64,000 nucleotides of DNA, taken from the NCBI GenBank assembly GCA_030429345.1, contig JAUIFJ010000021.1:1-64000 (forward strand), written 5' to 3'. Each line of letters begins with the position of its first letter. The stretch's first letter is position 1. Below the pieces are notes generated by a model. The model did no database searches. It was not told the origin of the DNA and worked only from the letters and a program-made list of their open reading frames with translations. The position numbers were made by a program, and so were the translations under genes. Source of the DNA: a bacterium (GTDB taxonomy: Bacteria > CAIWAD01). Shown here in pieces: positions 4,348 through 51,922 of the stretch.

Positions 4348-5388
4348 CTACCCTGGCACGCAGGCCGCCGAGCCCAGCACTTCGCGCAGGCGATCGGCGC
4401 GCAGGCGGGCCTGGCGGCGGCTTTCCTGGAACTCCTCCGTCGACCAGCCCAAATGCCCCGGCGCCAGGTCGACCAGCAGGGGACTGACCGGTCCCGGCAG
4501 GGGCAGGCCCAGCTGCCGCCCCAGGCGCAGCATGCTCAGGTGCTCGACCAGCTCCGCGTAGCCCATCAGGCGACTGCCCGAGCAAAGGGCCCAGGCCCGG
4601 TGGATGCGATCCTGCAGATCCAGCTGGCGGTGATCCTGCAGCTCCCGCCGGGCTTCCTTTTCCGCCTCCTCCAGTTCAGAAATGATCTGCGCCGCCTGGG
4701 CCAGGGTCTCCCCGGCGCTGCCGCGCAGGCCGTCCAGGTTCTCCAGCAGCACAAAATCGCCCAGGCCTTCCTGCCAGGTGCGATAGCAGAATCCGCGCAC
4801 GAAGAGCGGATCCAGCTGCGCCTCCAGTCCTCCCCACCAGGCCAGCCCTGGCAGATGCAGCACCATGCCCAGGCGCAGGCCGTTGCCGCAGAGAAAGGGT
4901 GAACTGGTTACCAGCCCTCCCGTCGGATCCAGGGCCAGCCCCGGATTCCGCTGCAGCTTCTCCTGTCCTGCATGAAAATCGGCCAGCGCCACCTCCAGGT
5001 CTCCCAGTCCGCCCAGGGCATGGAAGCGCAGGTGGTCTTCAGCGCCGATCAGCAGGCCGCGGCTTTCGTCCTCGGCCAGCAGAAGCTGGGCATCGCCATT
5101 GCCCTGGCTCTCGGGTTCGACCAGCCAGCGCTCGGCGAGCCACTCGATGGTTTCCGGGCGATTGTCGTCCAGGCTTGCCTGCAGCGGAAAATCCGACAAC
5201 AGATCCGCCCGGCTTCTCATGTAGTCCAGCAGGGCCTTGCGCTCGGCCCTTCCCAGGCGGGAAGGAAAGGGCAGGCCGTTGACGTTCATCTGCAGGCGCA
5301 GGCTGGCCAGGCAGAGAATGCCTTCATCCCGCGGGGTCCACGAGGGGCGGCGCGAGAGGAGGGTCGGAAGCAGTTCAGTGGGGGTCAT
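4348..5388 (-). CDS. McsB-like ATP:guanido phosphotransferase homologue, divergent active site
   Basis: 346 residues; McsB is usually about 350-365. McsB proteins phosphorylate arginine residues to mark proteins for ClpCP. Family motifs are recognisable: LxxLRLQMN near residue 30 (for SSRIRLARN), GAEDHLRF near residue 116 (for NEEDHLR) and TSSPFLCGNGLRL near residue 160 (for TSCPTNVGTGLR). The first and third arginines of the first motif are gone, and the cysteine of the TSCP motif is serine. The C-terminal ClpC-docking and pArg-binding half is weakly conserved. The start overlaps the mcsA stop by 14 bases, so translation is coupled. Context makes an McsA/ClpC partner very likely, but catalytic activity is doubtful. 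It could be a scaffold or pArg-reading adaptor. Confidence 0.8.
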   Translation of the reverse strand: MTPTELLPTLLSRRPSWTPRDEGILCLASLRLQMNVNGLPFPSRLGRAERKALLDYMRSRADLLSDFPLQASLDDNRPETIEWLAERWLVEPESQGNGDAQLLLAEDESRGLLIGAEDHLRFHALGGLGDLEVALADFHAGQEKLQRNPGLALDPTGGLVTSSPFLCGNGLRLGMVLHLPGLAWWGGLEAQLDPLFVRGFCYRTWQEGLGDFVLLENLDGLRGSAGETLAQAAQIISELEEAEKEARRELQDHRQLDLQDRIHRAWALCSGSRLMGYAELVEHLSMLRLGRQLGLPLPGPVSPLLVDLAPGHLGWSTEEFQESRRQARLRADRLREVLGSAACVPG

Positions 5389-5770
5389 GGTCTATCTCGT
5401 CGCGTAGGCGCGCCGCCAGTTCGTAGTCCTCGATCAGCAGCGCAAGGTTCAATTCCACTTCACGGCTCTCGCGGCTTTTGGGCAGCGTAGCAAGGCCGGG
5501 TTGTTGCAGGTTCTCGAGCAGGGGCTTGAGCAGGGGGGCGAAGGTCGTGCGGCAGTCGGGACAGCCATAGCGCACCTGGCGGCTGAACTCGCGCCAGCCC
5601 AGGTAACAGGTGGGACAGCGCGTTTCCTCCGCCGCTTCGACGATCAGGCTCCACCCTTTCAAGTGGTGCAGCCCGGCCGCCGCCAGGCAGTCCATGCATA
5701 GAAGAATGTTGTGCGGACTGCGTCCCTTCTGGACAACAGCCTCTTTGTCATTGCAACACTGGCAAATCAT
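5375..5770 (-). CDS. mcsA: McsA-type zinc-binding activator
   Basis: 131 residues from the chosen start MICQCCNDK, which follows a tggaggtgtcc ribosome site seven bases upstream. An in-frame ATG seven codons earlier is less well supported. Four paired-cysteine motifs (CxxC/CC) at about residues 3-6, 26-29, 53-56 and 70-73 should bind two zinc ions. The C-terminal segment LALLIEDYELAARLRDEI is a UVR motif, the same kind found in the middle domain of ClpC. In Firmicutes McsA activates the arginine kinase McsB. Its stop overlaps the start of the mcsB-like gene, and lolD ends 67 bases upstream, so all may be co-transcribed. Confidence 0.9.
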   Translation of the reverse strand: MICQCCNDKEAVVQKGRSPHNILLCMDCLAAAGLHHLKGWSLIVEAAEETRCPTCYLGWREFSRQVRYGCPDCRTTFAPLLKPLLENLQQPGLATLPKSRESREVELNLALLIEDYELAARLRDEIDHDPH

Positions 5771-5837
5771 CGGACACCTCCACAGTGTCACGCGCCGAAT
5801 CCTTCGACGCGCAGCGTAGCCGTTGATCAGCCCCTGG

Positions 5838-6503
5838 TCAACCGAGTGGAATCACCCGGTCGGCCACTCCCGTCACGCGCGGATCGTGTGTCACGATCAG
5901 CACGCTGCCGCCGCTCTCACGGACGACGGCTGTCAGGGAGTCCAGCACCTGTTCCGCGTTCTGCAGATCCAGGTTGCCGGTCGGTTCATCGGCGAACACC
6001 ATGGAAGGTCGATTGATCAGCGCGCGGGCCAGCGCAACACGCTGGCACTCGCCGCCGGAAAGCTCGGTGGGTCGGTGGTCGTGGCGGCCGGACAGCCCGA
6101 AGCGGTCCAGCAGCTCGCGGGCCCGTTCCTCGGATTCCGTGCGCCCCTGCCCCGCGATGCGCGAGGCCAGCAGCACGTTCTCCAGCGCTCCGAATCCGGG
6201 CAGCAGGTGATGCGCCTGGAAGACGAAGCCGAAACTCCGGCTGCGAATGCGCGCCCTGCGCGCCTGGGCCACCGAATAGAGGTCCTCGTCCTGCAGCAGC
6301 ACGCGGCCCTCGCTGGGGGCCTGCAGCCCGCCCAGGATATGCAGCAGGGTCGACTTGCCGGCTCCGCTGCGTCCCGTGATCGCCACCACTTCGCCCGGTG
6401 ATACACACACATCCAGGTCCTGCAGCACGCGCAGCTCGCCGCCGGTCGGCAGCTTGAAGGCCATGCCCAGGCCTTCTCCCCGAAGGATTCCCTCACTCGC
6501 CAT
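5838..6503 (-). CDS. lolD: Lipoprotein-releasing ABC transporter ATPase LolD
   Basis: 221 residues. Walker A GRSGAGKST is near residue 44, signature LSGGECQRVALARAL near 148, and Walker B VFADEPTGNLD near 170, the MacB/LolD-type pattern. The enzyme energises extraction of lipoproteins from the inner membrane for delivery to the outer membrane. The start codon lies inside the last codons of the permease gene (11-base overlap), so the pair is translationally coupled. The many lipoproteins predicted in the window are its likely substrates. Confidence 0.93.
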   Translation of the reverse strand: MASEGILRGEGLGMAFKLPTGGELRVLQDLDVCVSPGEVVAITGRSGAGKSTLLHILGGLQAPSEGRVLLQDEDLYSVAQARRARIRSRSFGFVFQAHHLLPGFGALENVLLASRIAGQGRTESEERARELLDRFGLSGRHDHRPTELSGGECQRVALARALINRPSMVFADEPTGNLDLQNAEQVLDSLTAVVRESGGSVLIVTHDPRVTGVADRVIPLG

Positions 6504-7719
6504 GGCGGATCGCCTCCACGGGGTGCAGGGCCGCCGCGCGGACGGCGGGGTACAGAGCCGCGGCCAGGCTCAAGAGCAGGGCGCTGGCAACGACCAGTCC
6601 CAGGTCCAGCGGGCGGAACTCGACGGGCAGGGCGCTGATGAAGTAGACGTCCGGGGGCAGGGCCAGCAGGCGGAAGCGCAGCTGGAGCCAGCAGAGCAGC
6701 AGGCCGATGCTGCTGCCGATCACGGTGCCTCCTCCGCCGAGCAGGATGCCCTGCCAGAGGAAGATGCGCCGGATCGAGGCCCGCTCGGCTCCCATGGCCA
6801 GCAGGATGCCGATCTCGCGGCGCCGCTCCATGGCCATCATCGTCAGGGTGGCGATGATGTTGAAAGCGGCCACCAGCACGATCAACAGCAGCATGAGGAA
6901 CATCATCCACTTCTCCAGCTTCATCATGCTGAAGAGGTTCTTGTGCATCTCGAACCAGGTCCAGGCGCCCAGAGGATAGTCGAGCTTCTCCTCGATCCTC
7001 TGCTTGACGCGCTCGGCGTGATCCAGGTTCGCCACGCGGCACTCGATGCCGCTCACCTTTTCCCCCATGCGGAACAGGCTCTGGGCCTCCTCCAGCGGGA
7101 TCATGGCAATGGCGTCGTCGAACTCGTAGATGCCCAGCTCGAAGAGCGCCGCCACCTGGAAACGTCTCACGACCGGCTGGCTGAAAGCGCTTGTGATACC
7201 GGAAGGGGAGATCATCAGCAGGGTGTCTCCGGGCAGGGCGCCCAGGCTCGAGGCCAGGTAGCGGCCGAGGATCGCCGGGGGCAGCTGCCCCTCGCGGCCT
7301 TGCAGGTCCGCTTCGCCGGCGAGCACATGCTGCTTCAGGTCCATCACTCCGGCCACGCCCTCCGGCGGCAGCCCGCGCACGACCACGCCTTCCGTGACAC
7401 CTTTGCGGCTCAGCATGCCCTTCTCGATGATGTAGGGGCTGGCCGCCGTGACACCTTCCACCGCGCGGATGCTGTCCAGCACGGCCCGGTAGTCCTGGAT
7501 GCCCTGGTCATGGAAGGCGCGCACGCGGATATGCGCGTCCAGTCCGATGATGCGGTCACGGACCTCGGTCTCGAAACCGGACATCACGCTGATCACGATA
7601 ATCAGCGCCGCGGTGCCGATGGTGATGCCCACCACGGAGAACCAGGTGATCACCGAAATGAAGCCCAGGCTGTGGCGGGAGCGCAGGTTGCGCAGCGCGA
7701 CGAAGAGTTCCCAGCTCAT
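6493..7719 (-). CDS. lolC: Lipoprotein-releasing ABC permease LolC/LolE
   Basis: 408 residues, the usual length. One N-terminal membrane helix (about residues 18-45, SLGFISVITWFSVVGITIG region) precedes a large periplasmic domain (about 46-265). Three C-terminal helices lie near 268-300, 315-350 and 370-395, the MacB/LolC/LolE topology. The motif VISVMSGFE just after the first helix is typical of LolC/E. Only one permease gene is present, so the complex may be a homodimer, as in LolF-type systems. Seven bases separate it from lysS upstream. No strong ribosome site is seen, which suggests coupling. Confidence 0.92.
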   Translation of the reverse strand: MSWELFVALRNLRSRHSLGFISVITWFSVVGITIGTAALIIVISVMSGFETEVRDRIIGLDAHIRVRAFHDQGIQDYRAVLDSIRAVEGVTAASPYIIEKGMLSRKGVTEGVVVRGLPPEGVAGVMDLKQHVLAGEADLQGREGQLPPAILGRYLASSLGALPGDTLLMISPSGITSAFSQPVVRRFQVAALFELGIYEFDDAIAMIPLEEAQSLFRMGEKVSGIECRVANLDHAERVKQRIEEKLDYPLGAWTWFEMHKNLFSMMKLEKWMMFLMLLLIVLVAAFNIIATLTMMAMERRREIGILLAMGAERASIRRIFLWQGILLGGGGTVIGSSIGLLLCWLQLRFRLLALPPDVYFISALPVEFRPLDLGLVVASALLLSLAAALYPAVRAAALHPVEAIRHGE

Positions 7720-7726
7720 GAGGGGA

Positions 7727-9274
7727 TCAGGCCCCGTCCTCCTTCTTGGCCGCGTCCTTGTCCTTTTTCCGGGAGCCGTCCACGGGCCGCATGGTCGGGA
7801 AGAAGATCACGTCGCGAATGCTCTCCGCGCCGGTGATCAGCATGGTCAGGCGGTCGATGCCCAGGCCCAGTCCGGCGGTCGGCGGCATGCCGACCTCCAG
7901 GGCCTTGACGAAGTCCTCGTCGAAGGGCTGGGCCTCCTCGTCGCCGCGCTGGATCGCCTCGTCCTGGTCCATGAAGCGCTGCTTCTGGTCGAAGGGGTCG
8001 GACAATTCGCTGAAGGCGTTGCAGATCTCCTTGCCGCCCACCACCGCCTCGAAGCGCTCCACCAGCCGTGGATCACGTCGGTGCCGCTTGGCCAGGGGAC
8101 TCATCTCGACGGGGTGATCCATCACGAAGGTCGGTTGCACCAGGTCGGGCTCGACGGTCTCTCCGAAGATGCCGTCCAGCAGGGTGGCATCGCTCATCGA
8201 GGCCTCGACCTCGACCCCGTGCTTCTTCGCGCAGGCCTCGAGGGTCGCGCGATCGGCGCCGAGCAGGTCCTCCCCGGTGGCTTCCCGGATCAGGTCCATC
8301 ATCGGGGCGCGCCGCCAGGGGCGCTTCAGGTCGATCTCGTGTCCGTTCCAGCACACCTTCGTGTGGCCGTTGATTTCCTGCGCGATGCCGCTCACCAGCT
8401 CCTCGGTCAGGTCCATCATGTACTGGTAGTCCTTGAAGGCGGCGTAGAGCTCGACCTGGGTGAATTCGGGATTGTGCGTCCGGTCGATGCCTTCGTTGCG
8501 GAAATCCCGCGAGAACTCGAAGACGCGGTCGAAACCGCCGACAATGAGACGCTTCAGGTAGAGCTCGTTGGCGATGCGCAGGTAGAGCCGCATGTCCAGG
8601 GTGTTGTGATGCGTCACAAAGGGCCGCGCCGCGGCTCCGCCGTATACGGGCTGCAGGACGGGCGTTTCCACCTCCAGGTAGTCCCGCTCTTCCAGGTAGC
8701 GCCGAATGGCGTTGACGATGCGCGTCCTCTTGACGAAGACCTCCCGGACTTCCGGGTTGACGATCAGGTCGAGGTAGCGCTGGCGATAGCGCTGGTCCTT
8801 GTCGCTGAACTCGTCGAAGACCTGCCCGTCCTTCTCCTTGAGCGAGGGCAAGGGGTATACATTCTTGGCGAGCAGAACGGCTTCTTCCACGGAAAGGGTC
8901 GCCTCACCGGTCTTGGTGCGGAAGGCCTTCCCGCTCACTCCCACGATGTCGCCGATGTCAAAGAGCTTGATTACGTCAAAGCTATCGGCACCCACCTTCT
9001 CGCTCTGGAAGAAAAGCTGGAGCTTTCCCGAGAAATCCTGCAGCTGGGCAAAACTTACCTTGCCCATGCGGCGCACGGCGGTCAGCCGGCCGGCGATGCG
9101 CAGGCTCTCTTTGGAAGTTTCGAAGTCCTCGAAGGCATCGGCCACCTGGCCGACCGTGTGGCTGCGCTCGTAGCTCCAGGGCCAGGGCTCGACGCCCATC
9201 GCGCGCAGCTTGTCCACCTTCTCGTGGCGTTGTCGAATGACAGGGGGCAGCTTCCGGCCCCGGTTCGGCTTCAT
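7727..9274 (-). CDS. lysS: Lysyl-tRNA synthetase, class II
   Basis: 515 residues from MKPNRGRKLPP, chosen because a gggagggacac ribosome site lies directly upstream; the open frame extends 243 bases further but overlaps prfB. An N-terminal OB-fold anticodon-binding domain (about 60-175) is followed by the class II catalytic core. That core has motif 2 (FRNEGIDRTHNPEFT near 275) and motif 3 (GLGLGIDRLTML near 470). The protein charges tRNA-Lys. It sits 16 bases after prfB, the same prfB-lysS order found in many bacteria. The C-terminus is lysine-rich. Confidence 0.97.
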   Translation of the reverse strand: MKPNRGRKLPPVIRQRHEKVDKLRAMGVEPWPWSYERSHTVGQVADAFEDFETSKESLRIAGRLTAVRRMGKVSFAQLQDFSGKLQLFFQSEKVGADSFDVIKLFDIGDIVGVSGKAFRTKTGEATLSVEEAVLLAKNVYPLPSLKEKDGQVFDEFSDKDQRYRQRYLDLIVNPEVREVFVKRTRIVNAIRRYLEERDYLEVETPVLQPVYGGAAARPFVTHHNTLDMRLYLRIANELYLKRLIVGGFDRVFEFSRDFRNEGIDRTHNPEFTQVELYAAFKDYQYMMDLTEELVSGIAQEINGHTKVCWNGHEIDLKRPWRRAPMMDLIREATGEDLLGADRATLEACAKKHGVEVEASMSDATLLDGIFGETVEPDLVQPTFVMDHPVEMSPLAKRHRRDPRLVERFEAVVGGKEICNAFSELSDPFDQKQRFMDQDEAIQRGDEEAQPFDEDFVKALEVGMPPTAGLGLGIDRLTMLITGAESIRDVIFFPTMRPVDGSRKKDKDAAKKEDGA

Positions 9275-9290: not shown

Positions 9291-10392
9291 TCAGGCGATA
9301 TTGTGATCCGGATCCAGCAGGAAGGCCCTGACGAAGGGCAGCAGGTTGCCGCCCAGCACGCCGGTGGTGTCGCTGGTCTGCTCGCTGGTCCGGTGATCCT
9401 TGACCATATTGTAGGGGTGGAGCACATAGCTGCGGATCTGGCTGCCGAAGGCGTTGTCCATCTTCTTGCCTTCCAGCTCGGCCAGCCGCTGGCGCTCCTC
9501 CTCCCGCTTCTGGGCATAGAGCCGCGAGGCCAGCATCTTCATCGCCGCCTGGCGATTGCGGATCTGGCTGCGCTCGTTCTGGCACTGTACGACAATCCCC
9601 GTGGGCATGTGCGTGATACGGATCGCCGAGTCGGTCTTGTTGACGTGCTGGCCGCCGGCGCCGGAGGCGCGGTAGGTGTCGACGCGCAGGTCCTTCTCGT
9701 CGATCACGATCTCGGCGTCGTCCTCGATTTCCGGATAGAGGAAGACGGAGGCGAAACTGGTGTGGCGGCGCCCCTGGCTGTCGAAGGGGCTGATGCGCAC
9801 CAGGCGGTGCACGCCGATCTCCGAGCGCAGAGTGCCGTATACATTGGTGCCGGAGATGCCCAGGGAAGCCAGCTTGATGCCGCTGATCTCGCCGGGCTGC
9901 TCGTCGAGGGTCTCGACCTTGAAGCCCTGCTGCTGGCAGAAGGCGCGGTACATGCGCAACAGCATGCCGGCCCAGTCCTCGGATTCCGTGCCGCCGGCCC
10001 CGGGGTTGACCGTCAGAATGGCGTGGCGCGCGTCGTCGGCGCCGCAGAGCATGGTTTCCATCTCGACCGTGTCGATCACATCGCGAATGCGCTCGGCCAG
10101 TTCGACCAGTTCGTCCAGCTCGCCTTCTTCGCCCATCTCGACGAACTCGGCGAGGGTCTCGTTGTCGGCCAGCACCGTGTCCATGCCTTCGATGCTCTGC
10201 TTGAGGGCGCTGGACTGCTTGAGCACTTCGCGAGCGGTTTCCGGCTGGTCCCAGAAATCCGGTTCCAGGCTCTGCTCTTCCAGTTCTTTCAACCTGCTGC
10301 GCTTGCTGTCCAGGTCAAAGACTCCTCCGGAGATGGACCAGGCGGCGGGCGTTCTCTTCCTGCAGGCGTCGGATTTCACTGAGGGTCATCAT
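9291..10392 (-). CDS. prfB: Peptide chain release factor 2, +1 programmed frameshift
   Basis: Full-length RF2 needs a +1 shift: codons from 10392 to 10318 (25 codons beginning MMTLSEIRRLQEENARRL) reach CTT followed by TGA. Skipping base 10317 continues from GAC at 10316 to the stop at 9291, giving about 366 residues. RF2 releases peptides at UGA and UAA. The SPF codon-recognition motif (RISPFDSQG) and catalytic GGQ (GAGGQHVNKTDS) are both present. A continuous frame entirely downstream exists but lacks the conserved N-terminus. It lies between the SpoIID-like gene (51 bases upstream) and lysS (16 bases downstream). Confidence 0.95.
10314..10328 (-). promoter_or_regulatory. prfB autoregulatory frameshift site
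   Basis: On the minus strand an internal Shine-Dalgarno GGAGG (10328-10324) lies three bases before CTT TGA C, the classic RF2 shift site. Low RF2 lets the ribosome pause at UGA and slip from CUU to UUU, restoring RF2 synthesis. The zero-frame peptide ends ...RRSL at the UGA. Confidence 0.93.
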
Positions 10393-10443
10393 GGCGGTTT
10401 CCAGGATTAAAGGCGGACGGCGAATCAGGCGGGAGGGCGCGGG

Positions 10444-12096
10444 TCAGCCCTGGTAGAAGACCTGGATCCGCATGCCGGGAAAGTAGTGTTTCAGGATCTC
10501 GGGACAGTGCTTGCCACGCAGGGCCATGCCGGCCGCGCCGAGCTGGCAAAGGCCCACTCCGTGCCCGCGTCCGGCGCCGATGAATCGGAAGGCGTGGGGG
10601 ACGCCGCGGTCGCCGGCGATTTTCTCAATGAGAAAGGCGCTCGAGAACAAGGCCGTCGGCGAGAGTGCCTCGCGAATCTTCAGTTCCTTCTGCAGGCGCA
10701 GGTTGCGGCGGCTGCCGATCAGCTCGATCTCCATCAACCGGCCGCTACGGCCGCGCTGCAAGGGCACGATCTCGTAGAGCGTGCCCACGTCGACACCGGT
10801 CTTGCGGTGGATGATCTCTTCCAGTTCCTGCCGGCTGAGCTCCTCCTGCCAGCGGTAGTAGCGGCGGGCGCGGTCGTCCAGGCCCCGAATGCCGGACAGC
10901 TGCAGGTTGCAATAGGTCTTCAGGGGCTTGCGGATCCACTGCTCGAACTCGGCCGGATTGCTGAGGTCGGGCTGGTGCCGGCGCTGCGAGCTTTCGGACA
11001 TGTCCAGCTGGCCGCTCAGCATTTCCTCCGGCGGCGTGTTCCAGACATTCTCCTTGCTTTCGCCATAGCCGCCGCAACAGGCGGTCGTCACACCATCGAC
11101 GACCCGGTCCTTCCAGACCATGACCTGTCCGGCCGTTTCTTCGACAGCGCGGTCGCTGTGCTCGCTGGGATCCGTGCGGCCGCTGTACTGCTGGCAGTGG
11201 CCGAAGGCGCAGAAGTCGAAGGGATCATAGGCGTGCTTCAGGCCCAGCATGCAGAGCACATTGCTCCGCGCCGCGATGGCCTGGGCCTTTTGGCACTCGA
11301 GCGGAAAGTCCCTGTCGAGCTCGGCGGGAAGAACGCCCTTGAGATAGGTGTCCAGGTGGACTTCGTTGACCACGCAGAGCATGCCGCCGTTGTCGACGCG
11401 GAACTCCAGCACTCCGTTGAAGCTGCGGTCGCGGAGGAATTCGTCCAGGTCCCCCTTGACTGTCGGCAGGCTGAAAAGGGTGACCAGTCCCGCATCCTCG
11501 TGTGGCACCAGGCGCAGGCCGTCGGGCAGTTCGCGATGCTCCTTCAGATCCGCGTCCATGTACTCGACGCGGCCCTTCGGGTCCTCGACGCGTTCGCGCA
11601 CCAGGCGCGGACGATAGTCGTTGTTGAGCAGCTCCTGCACACGACGGGCCTCGGCGGGATCCCCGTAGCGCCCGACCAGGACGCGGTAGCGGCTCGATCC
11701 CTGGTGCAGGGTTTCGTCGACCTGCAGGTGGACGCCGTCGTGACGGATCCAGCAGGGCCAGCCCTGAGCCTGCAAGGTACGGGCCAGGGCCAGGGCATCT
11801 TCGCGGCTGTGGAAGGAATCGACGAGCACGCTGCTGCTGAACAGCGCTTCCGAACCCTCCAGCACGCGGGCGCGCCAGCGCAGGTCGGAGCCCTTGCTGT
11901 CATGGAGCACCTCGCCCTTGAGGGTCTCCAGACGGAAGCCGCCTTCGACGCGGAAGTCGATCTTTTCCAGGCCCATGGCCAGTCCTACGCGCAAGAGTGG
12001 CCTGCGCGGAAGCTGGAGGACGCCCTGCGGGTCCTCGACGACCTGAATATCCGTGCTGGGGGGAGTGCTCACTGCGTTGTCGGCTTCCGGTTCCAC
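10444..12096 (-). CDS. SpoIID/LytB-domain protein, probable peptidoglycan-acting
   Basis: 550 residues starting at a GTG. The C-terminal half (about 215-550) is a SpoIID domain: YLKGVLPAEL near 230 carries the conserved glutamate, YDPFDFCAFGHCQQY near 285 has the paired cysteines that hold zinc in SpoIID, and GHGVGLCQLGAAGMA near 515 is the family signature. In sporulators SpoIID is a lytic transglycosylase that trims denuded glycan strands; in other bacteria its role is cell-wall or cell-separation related. Residues about 95-155 resemble a SPOR-like fold. No signal peptide is visible, so the start is uncertain and an upstream or alternative initiation is possible. It may head the prfB-lysS-lolCD-mcsAB-clpC run. 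Confidence 0.85.
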   Translation of the reverse strand: MEPEADNAVSTPPSTDIQVVEDPQGVLQLPRRPLLRVGLAMGLEKIDFRVEGGFRLETLKGEVLHDSKGSDLRWRARVLEGSEALFSSSVLVDSFHSREDALALARTLQAQGWPCWIRHDGVHLQVDETLHQGSSRYRVLVGRYGDPAEARRVQELLNNDYRPRLVRERVEDPKGRVEYMDADLKEHRELPDGLRLVPHEDAGLVTLFSLPTVKGDLDEFLRDRSFNGVLEFRVDNGGMLCVVNEVHLDTYLKGVLPAELDRDFPLECQKAQAIAARSNVLCMLGLKHAYDPFDFCAFGHCQQYSGRTDPSEHSDRAVEETAGQVMVWKDRVVDGVTTACCGGYGESKENVWNTPPEEMLSGQLDMSESSQRRHQPDLSNPAEFEQWIRKPLKTYCNLQLSGIRGLDDRARRYYRWQEELSRQELEEIIHRKTGVDVGTLYEIVPLQRGRSGRLMEIELIGSRRNLRLQKELKIREALSPTALFSSAFLIEKIAGDRGVPHAFRFIGAGRGHGVGLCQLGAAGMALRGKHCPEILKHYFPGMRIQVFYQG

Positions 12097-46435: not shown

Positions 46436-47596
46436 CTACGTTCCGCTTCCCATGCCCAGCCAGGCGGCGACGATGTTGATCATCATTTCGCTTGTGCCGG
46501 AATAGATCTTGCCGCCGATGGCGTCGCGCAGGACGCGCTCGACCTTGTACTCGGTGGTGAAGCCGTAGCCGCCGTGGATCTGGATGCAGCGCTCGGCGGC
46601 GTCGACGAAGGCTTCGCTGACGAAGAGCTTGGACAAGGCGGCGTCCTGTGAGACGCTGCGGCTCTTCTCCAGCCGGTCCGCGCTGCGGTAGACCATCAGG
46701 CGGCTGCTTTCCAGGTGCGCCTTGATGCGTGCCACATGCTCGCGGATCGCCGGGTAGCGCTCGATGGGGCGGCCGAACTGGCTGCGCGTGCGGGCGTAAG
46801 TCGTCGCCGTTTCCAGCAGGCGCTCCATGGCGCCCACGTGGATCGCCGAGAGCAGGGCCCGCTCCCAGTCCATGCTGTGGGTGAACATCGTCGCGCCGGC
46901 GCCTTCGCCACCCAGCATGTTCGCCGCGGGCACGCGGGCCTCCTGGAAACTGATCTCCCCGAAGGGCGAGGTGCGAATGCCCATCTTCTCGATCTTGCGG
47001 CTGCAGCTCACGCCGGGGGTGTCCATTTCGACGATGAAACAGCTCACGCCGCCGTGAAAGCCCTTCTCCGCGTCGGTCAACGCGAAGGCGACGAAGAGGT
47101 CGGCCACCGGCGCGTTGGTGATGAAGATCTTGTTCCCGGTCAGGACATAGTGCTCGCCGTCCTTCTCGGCCTTCGTCGTCATGGCGAAGGCGTCGGAACC
47201 CGTATTCGCCTCGGTCATGGCGTTGGAGGCGATCAGCGATCCGTCACACAGGCCGGGCAGGTATTTCCGCTTCTGCTCCTCCGTGCCGAACTTGTCAATG
47301 GGCACGGCGCAAGGCAGCATGTGGGCGCAGAGGCTGAAGAGCAGCCCGCCGTCCCAGCAGCCCTGGCCCAGGGCCTCCAGGGCGATCGCCGTCGACAGAG
47401 GGTCCAGTCCCCCGCCGCCGTACTCCTCGCTGACGGCGAGTCCGGGAATGCCCATCTCGCCCATCTTCTTCCACAGGTCGGCGGCGAAGACCTGCTCGCG
47501 GTCGCGGCTCTCCAGGTCGTCGTTCAGCTCCTGGCGCGCGAACTTGAGCAATGTCTCACGCAGGCTCTTCTGTTCTTCGGTGTACTCCAGGATCAT
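46436..47596 (-). CDS. Acyl-CoA dehydrogenase-like flavoenzyme, probable aminoacyl-carrier oxidase
   Basis: 386 residues from MILEYTEEQKSLRETLLKFA, start after aaggagagacttgc. It has the full acyl-CoA dehydrogenase fold: NAMTEANTGSDA near 125, ITNAPVADLFVAFA near 155, RTRSQFGRPI near 265 and GGYGFTTEY near 350. A glutamate in SMDWERALLS near 244 matches the alternative catalytic-base position used by isovaleryl-CoA dehydrogenase and, as I recall, prolyl-carrier dehydrogenases. The start overlaps the adenylation-enzyme stop as ATGA. Next to an amino-acid adenylating enzyme and a carrier protein it most likely oxidises a carrier-bound amino acid rather than a fatty acyl-CoA. The substrate is inferred, not shown. 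Confidence 0.85.
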   Translation of the reverse strand: MILEYTEEQKSLRETLLKFARQELNDDLESRDREQVFAADLWKKMGEMGIPGLAVSEEYGGGGLDPLSTAIALEALGQGCWDGGLLFSLCAHMLPCAVPIDKFGTEEQKRKYLPGLCDGSLIASNAMTEANTGSDAFAMTTKAEKDGEHYVLTGNKIFITNAPVADLFVAFALTDAEKGFHGGVSCFIVEMDTPGVSCSRKIEKMGIRTSPFGEISFQEARVPAANMLGGEGAGATMFTHSMDWERALLSAIHVGAMERLLETATTYARTRSQFGRPIERYPAIREHVARIKAHLESSRLMVYRSADRLEKSRSVSQDAALSKLFVSEAFVDAAERCIQIHGGYGFTTEYKVERVLRDAIGGKIYSGTSEMMINIVAAWLGMGSGT

Positions 47597-49161
47597 GCAA
47601 GTCTCTCCTTCAGGCCCTGGTAATCGGTCTTGTCGGTGGAGGTCTTCGGCAGGCTGTCGAAGAAATGGAAGTCGTCGGGGATCATGTAGGACAGCAGGTT
47701 CTTCGCGCACCATCCCTTGAGGGCGATGATCGAGAGCCTCTCTCCGCTGCGGGTCGCCAGGCAGGCGCTGATGCGCACCTCGCCCTGGTCATTGGTCCGC
47801 GCCAGCACGGCGACCTCGCGCAGGTCCTCGTGCCGGTGCAGGGTGGCCTCGATCTCGCCCAGCTCGACCCGGTAGCCGCGCTTCTTGACCATGCGGTCGC
47901 GCCGGCCGGCGAAGAGCAGTTCGCCGTCCCCCGGATCACGAACCACGTCGCCCGTGTTGTACCAGCGTCGGCCGTCGATCTCGACGAAGGCCTGCGCGTC
48001 CAGCTGCGGCGCTTTCCAGTAGCCGCTCATCACGCCGGGTCCGTCGATCAGCAGCAGGCCCTCCTCCCCGGGCGTCACGGGGCGGTTGTCGTGATCCACG
48101 ATCAGCGAGTCGTAGTGGGCGCAGACCCCACCGATCGGGTAGGGCGTATCACGGCTGTCGCCCTCCGGCCCCGGCAGGCGGTGCGCCGTGCAGACATTGG
48201 TCTCCGTCGGCCCGTAGAGATTCCAGTACTCCGGCTTCGGCAGCAGCTCGCGCAGCCGGCGCAGCTGCTGGATCGGGAAGACCTCGCCGGCGAAATTGAC
48301 CAGGCGCAGCGCGCTGGTGTCCTGCTCGGCCAGGTTGCCGTAGTCCAGCATCAGGCTGAGGATCGAGGGAGTCGAATACCAGCAGGTAATGCCCTCGTCC
48401 TCCAGCAGCTCGCAGAGGCGGATCGGGTTCTTGCCGTCCTCCTCGCCGATCAGGTGCAGGCTGGCTCCGTGCAGCAGGGGCACATAGATGTCCAGGATGC
48501 TGAGGTCGAAATGAAAGGGCGCGTGGGAACTGAAACGGTCCTTCGGCGTCGGCGCGAAGGTCCGCGCGCACCAGTCGATGAAGGCCAATGCGGCCTGCTG
48601 GCTCACCTGGACGCCCTTGGGGTCCCCCGTGCTGCCGGAGGTATACAGGATGTAGGCCAGGTCCTGCGGATCCCGCGGCGTGGCAGGCTCCGTGCGCCCC
48701 CGCGGCGTGACACGGTGATCCGTCAGCAACTGCGGCAGGCTGGTCTCGCTGTCGGGGTTGACGCCGATGATCCGTGCGCGGTGTCCCAGTTCCTCGAGAG
48801 CCAGGCGCAGGTCCTCGACCCGGTGGGTCTGGCAGATGATCGTGTGGACCTCGCAATCACGGAAGATCCAGGCGGCGCGCTCGATCGGTCCGCCGGCGTC
48901 GACGGGCACATGGACCGCCCCCAGCTTCTGCGCCGCGAAGAGGAAGGCCAGCGACTCCAGGGACTTGGGCAGGCAGATGCCCAGCCGTTCCCCGTTGAGC
49001 AGGCCGCCCTTGTAGAGCAGTTCCGCGCAGCGATCGACTCCGAGCACGAACTCGGCGTAGTTGGCTTCCCGGTCGCGGGCCGTGTCCCGAACGGCCAGCT
49101 CGTGGGGTGAAAGACGGCCGCCCGCCTCGAGGCAGGCGTGCAGGGTGGCGGGTGCAGCCAT
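47593..49161 (-). CDS. Stand-alone amino-acid adenylation enzyme
   Basis: 522 residues. Adenylation core motifs are clear: LAYILYTSGSTGDPKG near 172, HFDLSILD near 219 with the aspartate that normally binds an alpha-amino group, NLYGPTE near 318, YNTGDVV near 402, GYRVELGEIE near 430 and the catalytic lysine near 511 (STDKTDY). It should activate an amino acid with ATP and load it on the carrier protein encoded just upstream. Related stand-alone enzymes are DltA (D-alanine) and prolyl-activating enzymes such as PltF/RedM. The dehydrogenase next door favours the latter type. It starts two bases after the carrier-protein stop. Confidence 0.9.
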   Translation of the reverse strand: MAAPATLHACLEAGGRLSPHELAVRDTARDREANYAEFVLGVDRCAELLYKGGLLNGERLGICLPKSLESLAFLFAAQKLGAVHVPVDAGGPIERAAWIFRDCEVHTIICQTHRVEDLRLALEELGHRARIIGVNPDSETSLPQLLTDHRVTPRGRTEPATPRDPQDLAYILYTSGSTGDPKGVQVSQQAALAFIDWCARTFAPTPKDRFSSHAPFHFDLSILDIYVPLLHGASLHLIGEEDGKNPIRLCELLEDEGITCWYSTPSILSLMLDYGNLAEQDTSALRLVNFAGEVFPIQQLRRLRELLPKPEYWNLYGPTETNVCTAHRLPGPEGDSRDTPYPIGGVCAHYDSLIVDHDNRPVTPGEEGLLLIDGPGVMSGYWKAPQLDAQAFVEIDGRRWYNTGDVVRDPGDGELLFAGRRDRMVKKRGYRVELGEIEATLHRHEDLREVAVLARTNDQGEVRISACLATRSGERLSIIALKGWCAKNLLSYMIPDDFHFFDSLPKTSTDKTDYQGLKERLA

Positions 49162-49163
49162 GG

Positions 49164-49412
49164 CTAGCCCTTTCGGGATTCGACGAAGGCAACGATCCGG
49201 TCAATGGTGTCCAGGTGCTCGGCGCCGACCTCGTGGGCGGCGAACTCGACTCCGTAGCTGTCCTCCAGGAAGGTGACCAGCTTCAGGGTCGCCAGCGAAT
49301 CGAGGATCCGGCTGCTGACCAGCTCGACATCATCGGTCAGCGATTCGGCGGGCTCTCCGGGCAGGAATTCCTTGAGGATGAATTCGCGGATCTCTTCACG
49401 CATCTCGGCCAT
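49164..49412 (-). CDS. Acyl/peptidyl carrier protein
   Basis: 82 residues from MAEMREEIREFILKEF; the ATG overlaps the upstream stop (TGATG) after a ggagag site. An in-frame ATG 12 bases upstream is also possible. The motif ILDSLATLKL near residue 38 carries the serine for 4'-phosphopantetheine. Four-helix carrier-protein architecture is consistent with the acidic composition. It is the probable thioester shuttle between the adenylating enzyme, the dehydrogenase and the MBOAT transferase. Confidence 0.9.
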   Translation of the reverse strand: MAEMREEIREFILKEFLPGEPAESLTDDVELVSSRILDSLATLKLVTFLEDSYGVEFAAHEVGAEHLDTIDRIVAFVESRKG

Positions 49413-51922
49413 CAGTCTCTCCATATCTTGTTTGCATCACGTCTGAATTCGTCGTACAGGCGCTCGGCGACCATGCGGTGGCCTACCGCCGAGGGATGGT
49501 CGTCCCAGGGCTTGACCCACAGCTCTTCCGGCTCCGGTCCGGCGTATACGCCGGCCAGGTCGATCACCGGGCGACCCGTGGCGCGGGCCGTGGCGACGAC
49601 CTCTTCCCAGCTCATCTGCAGCTTGTGCTCCAGCAGCAGGGGCACGAAGAGGAAGACCAGCTTCTGCTCCCTTTCGGCGCAGAGCTCGCTCATGCGGCCG
49701 AAGATCCAGCCAAGCAGTTCCTGCTCGAAGGGCCGCAGGTGGCGGATCGCGGCGCTCTCCTCCATGCCTGGCCGGGCTCCGGCCCGTTCGACCAGTTCGT
49801 CCAGCCAGGGGTGGGGCAGCGGGACTTCGCGCTCGAGCAGCCAGGCCAGGCGATCGACGCCGTGCTTGCCGTCGATGATGTGTCCCACGTAGACCACGTT
49901 GTCGGCGTGGAAGCGGGGCACCTGGTCCTCGAGCACGGCCAGGATGTCGAGGGGCGTATAGCCCTCGACGCCGAAATTGAGGATCTCGAAGGGGGTACCG
50001 CTCTCGTTGACCTTCTTCTCCAGCAGGGACTCGAAGTCGTCTTCCTGTGCCACACCGCTGCCGTAGAGGTGGGAGGCGCCGATCCAGGCCGAGCGCCGGG
50101 TTCCCTCCGCCGGTCGCGCGGCATAGTCCAGGTCCCGCAGTCCCTCGCTGTTGACGCGCACCTGGACGCCCTTGTGGCGCTGTTCCGTGTTCGGCACCAG
50201 CTTGAGGAAGGGCAGGCCGTCGACCGGCTCGGACAGAATGCTCTTCTTCAGCGAGACCCAGTCGGCGGGCTTCTGCTGGAAGACCTCGTTCAGCTGGGGA
50301 TTGTCCCAGCCCACATCGTTCAGCTTCTCGTAGTAGTCCCTCTGGCGGCGCATCTTGTCGCGGTCGTTGAGCACCGGGCTCTTCACCTGGTGGACCAGGT
50401 CGCGCGCCTCCTGGGGAAAGCGGTTGTATACGGCCGGGTAGCCGATGGCGAAGAGCAGCGCCAGCATGCCGCCCGTGCGCAGCGCTTCCTGCCAGAAGGG
50501 GCGATGGGGCGGCTTGTTGTAGAGGAAGTAGAGGCCGGCCAGGAAATGGATCACGATGCCCGCGGCGACCAGGGCGACGATGCCTCCCCCGCCGGGCTCG
50601 ATCCGTCCGGCCATGCTGAAGAGGCTGGCCCACTCGCGCACCGAATCCGTGATCCACATGGACCACAGCACGCAGATCGTCAGGAAGACGCCCGTGGTCT
50701 TCACCGCGATGCGCGCCTTGACCTTCAGGCCGCCGCGGCTTTCCTGCAGCCGCTGCAGCGGGGTCTTCTTCTCCTCGAGCACCACGTTGACCGCGACCAG
50801 GGCGCAGAGCACGACCCAGAAAAGGATGTCGTGCGTCGCCAGCAGGAATTCGCCGCGGATCCAGAACCAGAGCCAGGCGTGGAAGAACCAGGTGGCGAAG
50901 AAGACCCAGACCGTTCCCAGGACCAGCGCCTGGGTATTGCCGTACTTGCGCAGGCGGAAAAAGGCCGGATAATAGAAGACCTTCAGCATGAAGTCCTTCC
51001 AGTAGATGTTGATCCGGCGCCAGAAATCGGTGAAGCTGCTGGCCAGGTAGAAGAGATGATGCGTTTCCGGCAGGTTGTAGCCGAAGATGCGCACAAGGCC
51101 GATCACCAGGTGGAACTGCCCGCTGACATTCAGGTAGAGCAGGAAGGGCCAGCTCAGGTAGCGCAGCAGGCTGCCCAGGCCGATCACGTCCGTGGTGTCG
51201 ATGGGCGCGTGCTGATAGATCAATCGATACAGAATGAGCTGCAAGACGCCGCGGGCGATCCAGGACATGCCTTCCTGGACGTCGCGGGCCTTCTTCTCCG
51301 GCTTGCCCTGGCTGCGGACGAAGGTCTGGTAGTCCACGGAGGGAAAGAGCGGGAAGACCACATTGGGCACCATGAAGAAGTAGGCCAGTCGGTTGGGCCA
51401 GGTCACCGGCGCCGTCTTGTGGGATTGATCATAGAGGAAAATGATCATCCGGATCGAGAAGAGGGAGCCCAGGATCGGCCAGATCGCCCCCGACCAGGGG
51501 TGCTCGATGGCTCCGCCGCGCATGAAGGCCAGCAGCGTGATCGCCGCGCCGAGAATGCCCCAGCGCAGCAGGGCCGGGCCGGGGATGGCTGTCAAGGCGA
51601 TCAGCCCGACTCCCAGTCCGAGCAGCCAGCCGCCGTGCAGCCAGCCGAAGACCAGCGGAAAACTGCCCATGGACAGCAGCACGAAGAGCCAGTGCTTGTA
51701 GCGTGGCGGGGTGAAATAATGCAGGGCGAAACCGCCGAGCAGGTAGAAACTGAAGTGGTGGAAGATCTGCCCCTGCAGCTGGAAACTCCAGCCGGTCAGG
51801 TAGAGGGCAAGCGCCAGCTGGAACCAGAGAGCGCCGAATTTCAGCAGCTCCCCGATGCCGGGAAAGGCGTAAGAAGGGCGGTCGCCGCTTGCGGGCGGCG
51901 CCTGAGTGGGATTCGTGCTCAT
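49412..51922 (-). CDS. MBOAT acyltransferase fused to SGNH domain
   Basis: 836 residues. The N-terminal half has about 11-12 membrane helices of the MBOAT family: FWRRINIYWKDFMLKVFYYP near 298 and the conserved histidine in TWFFHAWLWFW near 346, as in DltB and alginate O-acetyltransferases. After a soluble linker, residues about 600-830 form an SGNH-hydrolase-like domain: WIGASHLYGSGV near 612 (the usual GDS reads GAS, keeping the serine) and WDDHPSAVGH near 811 with the Asp/His pair. In the dlt system these parts are the separate DltB and DltD. Here they are one polypeptide. It should move a carrier-bound acyl group across the membrane and onto an exported acceptor. Confidence 0.9.
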   Translation of the reverse strand: MSTNPTQAPPASGDRPSYAFPGIGELLKFGALWFQLALALYLTGWSFQLQGQIFHHFSFYLLGGFALHYFTPPRYKHWLFVLLSMGSFPLVFGWLHGGWLLGLGVGLIALTAIPGPALLRWGILGAAITLLAFMRGGAIEHPWSGAIWPILGSLFSIRMIIFLYDQSHKTAPVTWPNRLAYFFMVPNVVFPLFPSVDYQTFVRSQGKPEKKARDVQEGMSWIARGVLQLILYRLIYQHAPIDTTDVIGLGSLLRYLSWPFLLYLNVSGQFHLVIGLVRIFGYNLPETHHLFYLASSFTDFWRRINIYWKDFMLKVFYYPAFFRLRKYGNTQALVLGTVWVFFATWFFHAWLWFWIRGEFLLATHDILFWVVLCALVAVNVVLEEKKTPLQRLQESRGGLKVKARIAVKTTGVFLTICVLWSMWITDSVREWASLFSMAGRIEPGGGGIVALVAAGIVIHFLAGLYFLYNKPPHRPFWQEALRTGGMLALLFAIGYPAVYNRFPQEARDLVHQVKSPVLNDRDKMRRQRDYYEKLNDVGWDNPQLNEVFQQKPADWVSLKKSILSEPVDGLPFLKLVPNTEQRHKGVQVRVNSEGLRDLDYAARPAEGTRRSAWIGASHLYGSGVAQEDDFESLLEKKVNESGTPFEILNFGVEGYTPLDILAVLEDQVPRFHADNVVYVGHIIDGKHGVDRLAWLLEREVPLPHPWLDELVERAGARPGMEESAAIRHLRPFEQELLGWIFGRMSELCAEREQKLVFLFVPLLLEHKLQMSWEEVVATARATGRPVIDLAGVYAGPEPEELWVKPWDDHPSAVGHRMVAERLYDEFRRDANKIWRD

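Follow-up and report, generated by a model that had tools for sequence, protein, structure and literature searches.

The window analysed here comprises the first 64,000 nucleotides of contig JAUIFJ010000021.1 in a bacterial genome assembly (GCA_030429345.1; GTDB lineage CAIWAD01). Its minus strand carries four tightly packed genes, named M, C, A and D in their order of transcription, that span 46436-51922 and encode a predicted fusion of an MBOAT membrane acyltransferase with an SGNH domain (M), a carrier protein (C), an amino-acid adenylating enzyme (A) and an acyl-CoA dehydrogenase-like flavin adenine dinucleotide (FAD) enzyme (D). The open reading frame (ORF) coordinates confirm the positions and strand given in an earlier note, which was made from the sequence alone. 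Between M and C there is a 13-bp overlap, between C and A a 2-bp gap and between A and D a 4-bp overlap; we therefore treat the four as one operon, a candidate system for acylation outside the cytoplasm. The start codon of D is most likely the ATG at 47596 (MILEYTEEQ...), where the alignment of its relatives begins, rather than the ORF start at 47713.

Four kinds of comparison (NCBIfam, profile, fold and tree) place the flavoenzyme D with the prolyl-carrier dehydrogenases and not with the fatty acyl-CoA dehydrogenases; the references were the AnaB, PigA and Bmp3 sequences and the RedW model. The NCBIfam ranking is headed by PigA (418 bits) and RedW (383), with the next model at 321; D stays below the curated cut-offs of both (500 and 650, respectively), i.e. 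it belongs to the same subfamily and is an equivalog of neither. A profile of 32 D sequences gave 516 bits for AnaB, 431 for PigA, 428 for Bmp3 (PDB 6cxt; PMC10849742) and at most 373 for ordinary enzymes, and the first seven matches of the fold search are all AnaB, PigA or Bmp3. In the tree, D, 30 cassette relatives and these three proteins are split with 100/100 support from the ordinary dehydrogenases, of which it holds only four, three from the same genome plus 5lnx. An earlier tree that included very divergent dehydrogenases of the same genome left D unresolved, and removal of those long branches resolved it. Both motifs that the earlier note had picked out, TNAPVADLFV and MDWERA, are present. 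The first parallels TNGTIADLFI of AnaB and TNAPIADVFI of PigA; the glutamate of MDWER is invariant in 32/32 D sequences and corresponds to a residue that has been mutated to Ala in the PigA variant 6af6, its position being that of the base essential in AnaB and Bmp3 (PMC10849742). The serine of YSGT, found in 31 of the 32 and likewise in AnaB, PigA and Bmp3, is replaced by glutamate (YEGT) in 5lnx.

The best single-domain PDB match of A is PltF (6o6e), which activates proline. Read at the columns aligned to PltF, the specificity code of A is DLLYNALVCK, that of PltF is DLLYLALVC, and the two agree at 9/10 specificity residues. DLLYLALVCK occurs exactly in 25 of 44 sequences, and almost all others are one position off. 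DltA has D-L-M-T-M-C-T-V-A at the same columns, and its NCBIfam model scores 256 bits on A against a cut-off of 560. The FDLS motif quoted in the earlier note is there. The comparison with PltF and DltA which that note proposed gave the proline code of the former; activation of D-alanine, which that note had kept in view as a contrary outcome, is disfavoured by the code. These sequence comparisons support L-proline as the predicted substrate of A.

Among the PDB matches of C are Bmp1, a carrier from the bromopyrrole pathway (6cxt_A), PltL and DltC, and its DS motif is invariant in 36/36 carriers. Its best NCBIfam model, NF052616, is that of an ornithine-lipid acyl carrier, which brings up a role for C in ornithine-lipid synthesis (OlsHI); in Isosphaeraceae, too, a GH3 (olsH-type) gene is found no more than about 20 kb from such a carrier and D. 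Yet the score of 97 bits is under the cut-off of 130 (DltC and acyl carrier protein models are weaker still), and the carrier stands directly beside A and D, in the window as well as in the cassettes from outside the planctomycetes. Three planctomycete genomes tested have one such carrier each, which A would need, and the OlsH paper (PMC12493201) mentions no carrier. We consider this role very improbable and rejected it. As a side observation, NF052616 ("ornithine lipid biosynthesis acyl carrier protein") seems to cover the carrier family to which C belongs; the Isosphaeraceae sites are at 1996632-2014259 of contig C1 in Singulisphaera acidiphila (genome G066) and at 60887-68990 of contig C271 in genome G067. 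The name of that model may derive from gene neighbourhood alone, or there may be a link between the two pathways.

M has no known domain in Pfam, where the MBOAT model itself does not match, and neither MBOAT nor SGNH is assigned above cut-off by Pfam or NCBIfam. Though invisible to Pfam, the two parts read by the earlier note are supported by the predicted fold and by invariant catalytic residues: an MBOAT fold with an invariant His and an SGNH fold with Ser, Asp and His. The AlphaFold2 model (pLDDT 89.2, pTM 0.88, 68 relatives in the alignment) matches in Foldseek searches of the PDB the MBOATs HHAT (hedgehog acyltransferase; 1e-6) and DltB (3e-6), then GDSL/SGNH esterases, including TesA and acetyl-xylan esterases. 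Across 69 M sequences H348, Y530, Y531, S617 and H809 are invariant, D807 is kept in 66, and the stretch NIYWKDFM (305-312) is invariant or nearly so; the SGNH motifs are GxS at 615-617 and DxH(P) at 807-809. The role of H348 is assigned by analogy to the universal MBOAT histidine (PMC12148441). In bacterial MBOAT-SGNH systems as described in PMC12148441, the two parts are distinct proteins and the acyl group passes via a tyrosine to the SGNH serine; in the window both parts are in one protein, and the Isosphaeraceae have M divided over separate genes. The FXYXXF shuttle motif of DltX and PatA is not present in M, which has instead the invariant Y530-Y531, located in the model just before a low-confidence, flexible loop (533-540) between the membrane part and the SGNH domain. 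By analogy to FXYXXF (PMC12148441) we infer that this pair is a candidate acyl shuttle. Seven loci (L042, L057, L060, L062, L075, L083 and L093) have more than one M copy close together, possibly for several acceptors or acyl groups.

A scan with M yielded 79 loci with relatives (locus numbers carry the prefix L and genome numbers G). Of these, 34 loci, spread over nine phyla, have all four genes together, and the order is M-C-A-D in 26. The set thus recurs in other phyla, the point of the neighbourhood search proposed in the earlier note, and a chance grouping of the four is excluded. Cultured Gram-negative bacteria are among those with these genes, for example Pseudothauera (P. rhizosphaerae), Methylomonas and Microvirga; the 1.39-Mb megaplasmid pMVF16-2 of Microvirga sp. 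VF16 has all four genes (L198, 11248-17439), with C-A-D divergent from M. Several M loci without D are contig ends, and of 14 genomes tested that lack a D near their M locus, 12 have one elsewhere, at 474-695 bits versus at most 375 for ordinary dehydrogenases. Among 99 planctomycetes (E <= 1e-60 for M, E <= 1e-120 for D), D occurs in 23/28 genomes with M and 0/71 without (Fisher test 5e-18, uncorrected for kinship). Of 274 gammaproteobacteria, one of them the M-bearing genome on which the sample was centred, three have M and all three have D, which is otherwise seen in 2/271, both times adjoining peptide-synthetase genes. A third group of seven genomes has D in 2/2 with M and 0/5 without. M and D can be far apart in planctomycetes, as in Singulisphaera acidiphila (M at 9.42 Mb, D at 2.00 Mb), and the two are therefore co-inherited there without being neighbours. 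A close M is missing from three other genomes of the window's own family, so the distribution is patchy.

The four genes could also be taken as an ordinary D-alanylation operon (dlt/dra-type) that has picked up a dehydrogenase by chance, given that Dlt, too, comprises an MBOAT, an SGNH protein, a carrier and an amino-acid adenylating enzyme and that the DltA and DltC models do match weakly. We give this next to no credit and rejected it: it is contradicted by the code of A, and the low DltA score and the retention of D with M across nine phyla, also when unlinked, speak against it.

We judge it likely that the operon serves extracytoplasmic acylation with an oxidised proline, most likely as pyrrole-2-carboxyl, by a Dlt-like export route. 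A would activate L-proline with ATP and load it onto the phosphopantetheine arm of C. There D would oxidise the proline, most likely removing four electrons and giving pyrrole-2-carboxyl-S-C. At the inner membrane face the acyl group would be taken over from C by the MBOAT part of M, probably onto Y530/Y531, and the SGNH domain would pass it via Ser617 to a hydroxyl of an external acceptor, probably a glycan or glycolipid. For loading and oxidation there is specific evidence from the sequences; for the transfer, support comes from the fold, the conserved residues and the association of the genes. Sequence or model supports the gene set, the folds, the catalytic residues, the proline code, the subfamily of D and the co-occurrence; we infer that oxidation goes all the way to pyrrole, that a tyrosine serves as shuttle, that the linkage is an ester and to which class the acceptor belongs. 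The general idea of the earlier note, an oxidised amino acid made on a carrier and passed on by an MBOAT-SGNH protein, thus gains sequence-based support from the code of A, the subfamily of D, the cross-phylum set and the co-occurrence of M and D.

The neighbours of M in related loci bear on both the acyl group and the acceptor. FAD enzymes whose best NCBIfam match is the CmlS halogenase model, and which also hit PF04820, lie near M in L036 (4873-6099), L067 (10374-11789), L071 (two; 5109-7864), L074 and L082 (2980-4293); in L191 a PF04820 enzyme (9660-10970) sits directly between D and M, and in L190 a PF04820 fragment follows D. The WxWxIP flavin-halogenase motif is found in 6/7 halogenase-like enzymes, L074 being without it. 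Halogenases of this class act on electron-rich rings, so these genes, as an argument from the neighbours of relatives and not from the window, fit pyrrole over pyrroline, and they suggest halogenated pyrrole forms in some loci. L036 (10847-14387) and L045 (4318-7875) encode a Rieske ring-hydroxylating oxygenase and a B12-binding radical SAM protein (TIGR04190-like), L036 with an ETF (electron transfer flavoprotein)-quinone oxidoreductase in addition. In the gammaproteobacterial locus L190 (4113-19177), C, A, D and the halogenase fragment are accompanied by a divergent M, a protein resembling amine oxidases and two GT2 enzymes, and the cluster has the look of a pathway for a specialised lipid or pigment.

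Such locus-to-locus variation in tailoring genes (halogenases in some, the Rieske oxygenase and radical SAM protein in others, the two GT2 enzymes and amine-oxidase-like protein in one) would fit a reading in which M acylates a secreted or membrane small molecule, for example a glycolipid- or carotenoid-like specialised metabolite, instead of a surface polymer. We regard this as possible, if doubtful, since most cassettes stand alone, with no adjoining scaffold-making genes, which would suit a housekeeping envelope acceptor, and since polysaccharide-type genes adjoin the set in some loci (L094 and L058), though only in some (L190 is the other).

Several observations weigh against the proposed transfer of pyrrole-2-carboxyl. 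A of the window has Asn where PltF has Leu, a substitution at the fifth code position that is shared by two further D-containing cassettes (L088 and L092). Five planctomycetes have M without D; G152 and G159 are fragmented assemblies, and G094, G107 and G135 have a full-length M, so some M proteins, such as these three, may carry other acyl groups. In at least one genome (G061, L126) the unlinked D sits with an A and two carriers, maybe as part of another pathway. No acceptor gene is conserved beside the set among the loci. Finally, AnaB is the best PDB match of D, and three D enzymes from Myxococcota cassettes group with AnaB, a two-electron oxidase yielding pyrroline; the D product could therefore be at the pyrroline or the pyrrole level. 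The same route might thus export a group that is only partly oxidised (1-pyrroline-5-carboxyl, as made by AnaB) or proline itself. We hold this to be unlikely, because the pyrrole-forming PigA and RedW models rank first for D, because the window D does not group with AnaB, and because the halogenase-like partners in some loci need an electron-rich ring; in general chemistry a pyrroline or prolyl ester would, moreover, be labile.

With the Dlt system of teichoic acid D-alanylation (DltA, DltB, DltC, DltD, DltX), the operon shares an adenylating enzyme, a carrier, an MBOAT fold and an SGNH fold; as in Dlt, the MBOAT would draw its acyl group from the carrier and the SGNH part would hand it to an external acceptor. 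It differs in its proline code, in the extra prolyl-carrier dehydrogenase, in the fusion of MBOAT and SGNH in most members, in its mostly Gram-negative phyla, and in having no separate DltX that we could see, but an invariant Tyr pair inside M. The Bordetella dra locus and Vibrio AlmEFG are precedents for carrier-dependent aminoacylation of a Gram-negative envelope, as proposed here, but with D-alanine or glycine and no oxidation, and AlmG is not known to be an MBOAT-SGNH protein. The pyrrole cassettes PltF/PltL/PltE, PigI/PigG/PigA, RedM/RedO/RedW and Bmp1/Bmp3/Bmp4 have the same three proteins (proline adenylating enzyme, carrier, flavin dehydrogenase), the same code and catalytic Glu, and in some cases an FAD halogenase nearby; there the pyrrolyl group enters a polyketide, peptide or halopyrrole product, whereas the remaining gene of the operon described here codes for a transmembrane MBOAT-SGNH transferase. 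AnaB/AnaC/AnaD of anatoxin synthesis likewise load and oxidise a prolyl carrier, and D resembles AnaB, but the oxidation is by two electrons, the product is a polyketide and there is no MBOAT. The O-acetylation systems PatA/PatB, WssH/WssI and AlgI/AlgJ/AlgX share MBOAT plus SGNH, the conserved His and the proposed acyl-transfer logic, and are unlike the operon in using acetyl-CoA and separate polypeptides (for PatA/PatB, PMC12148441), with no carrier, adenylating enzyme or dehydrogenase.

Coordinates of the individual features are collected in Table 1. The operon is flanked on one side by a DUF985 cupin and a glyoxalase gene and on the other by genes for a flavodoxin-domain protein and a TetR regulator, all ordinary and unrelated; no neighbour beyond M, C, A and D is conserved among the loci, and a promoter and terminator scan gave nothing above chance. 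Neighbouring genes were called with a codon-usage caller, as a longest-ORF caller was misled by long antisense ORFs.

Table 1. Genes, domains and key residues of the M-C-A-D operon (window coordinates)
Feature	Position	Strand	Basis
M, MBOAT-SGNH fusion, 836 amino acids, first gene of operon	49412..51922	-	predicted fold; relatives in 79 loci
MBOAT part of M, residues about 23-423	50654..51856	-	helical membrane domain in model; conserved residues
H348 of M, MBOAT catalytic histidine	50879..50881	-	invariant in 69/69; role by analogy
Y530-Y531 of M, candidate acyl-shuttle tyrosines	50330..50335	-	invariant in 69/69; role by analogy to FXYXXF
SGNH acyl-transfer domain of M, residues about 604-830	49433..50113	-	Foldseek matches and motifs
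S617 of M, SGNH catalytic serine	50072..50074	-	invariant in 69/69
Asp807/His809 of M, SGNH	49496..49504	-	H809 in 69/69, D807 in 66/69
C, carrier protein, 86 amino acids	49164..49424	-	NCBIfam and PDB matches
S43 of C, phosphopantetheine serine	49296..49298	-	DS motif in 36/36 carriers
A, predicted L-proline adenylating enzyme, 522 amino acids	47593..49161	-	PltF (6o6e) best single-domain PDB match
Specificity region of A, DLLYNALVCK	48190..48507	-	alignment to PltF; final K further C-terminal
D, predicted prolyl-carrier dehydrogenase, FAD enzyme, 386 amino acids	46436..47596	-	NCBIfam, PDB sequence and fold matches, tree
Catalytic glutamate of D (MDWER)	46862..46864	-	invariant in 32/32
Ser of D in YSGT	46499..46501	-	Ser in 31/32; Glu (YEGT) in ordinary acyl-CoA dehydrogenases such as 5lnx

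We found no description of an MBOAT-SGNH protein with a proline cassette in the literature searched, outside of which lay most subscription journals. Each part is of a known kind; what that literature does not describe is their combination, how widely it occurs and the surface chemistry predicted from it. Two separately known systems, the natural-product pyrrole cassette and Dlt-type transmembrane acylation, are joined in one operon in at least nine phyla. We lean slightly toward regarding it as a widespread undescribed class, in which a one-protein MBOAT-SGNH transferase places pyrrole-2-carboxylic acid esters, probably halogenated or otherwise tailored in some lineages, on the envelope or an exopolymer. 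The reading offers a function for many genes labelled only as acyl-CoA dehydrogenase, AMP-binding enzyme or hypothetical membrane protein, and it yields a directly testable chemical prediction: if it is true, the surfaces or exopolymers of these bacteria would bear an aromatic N-heterocyclic ester, possibly halogenated, that envelope analyses may have missed.

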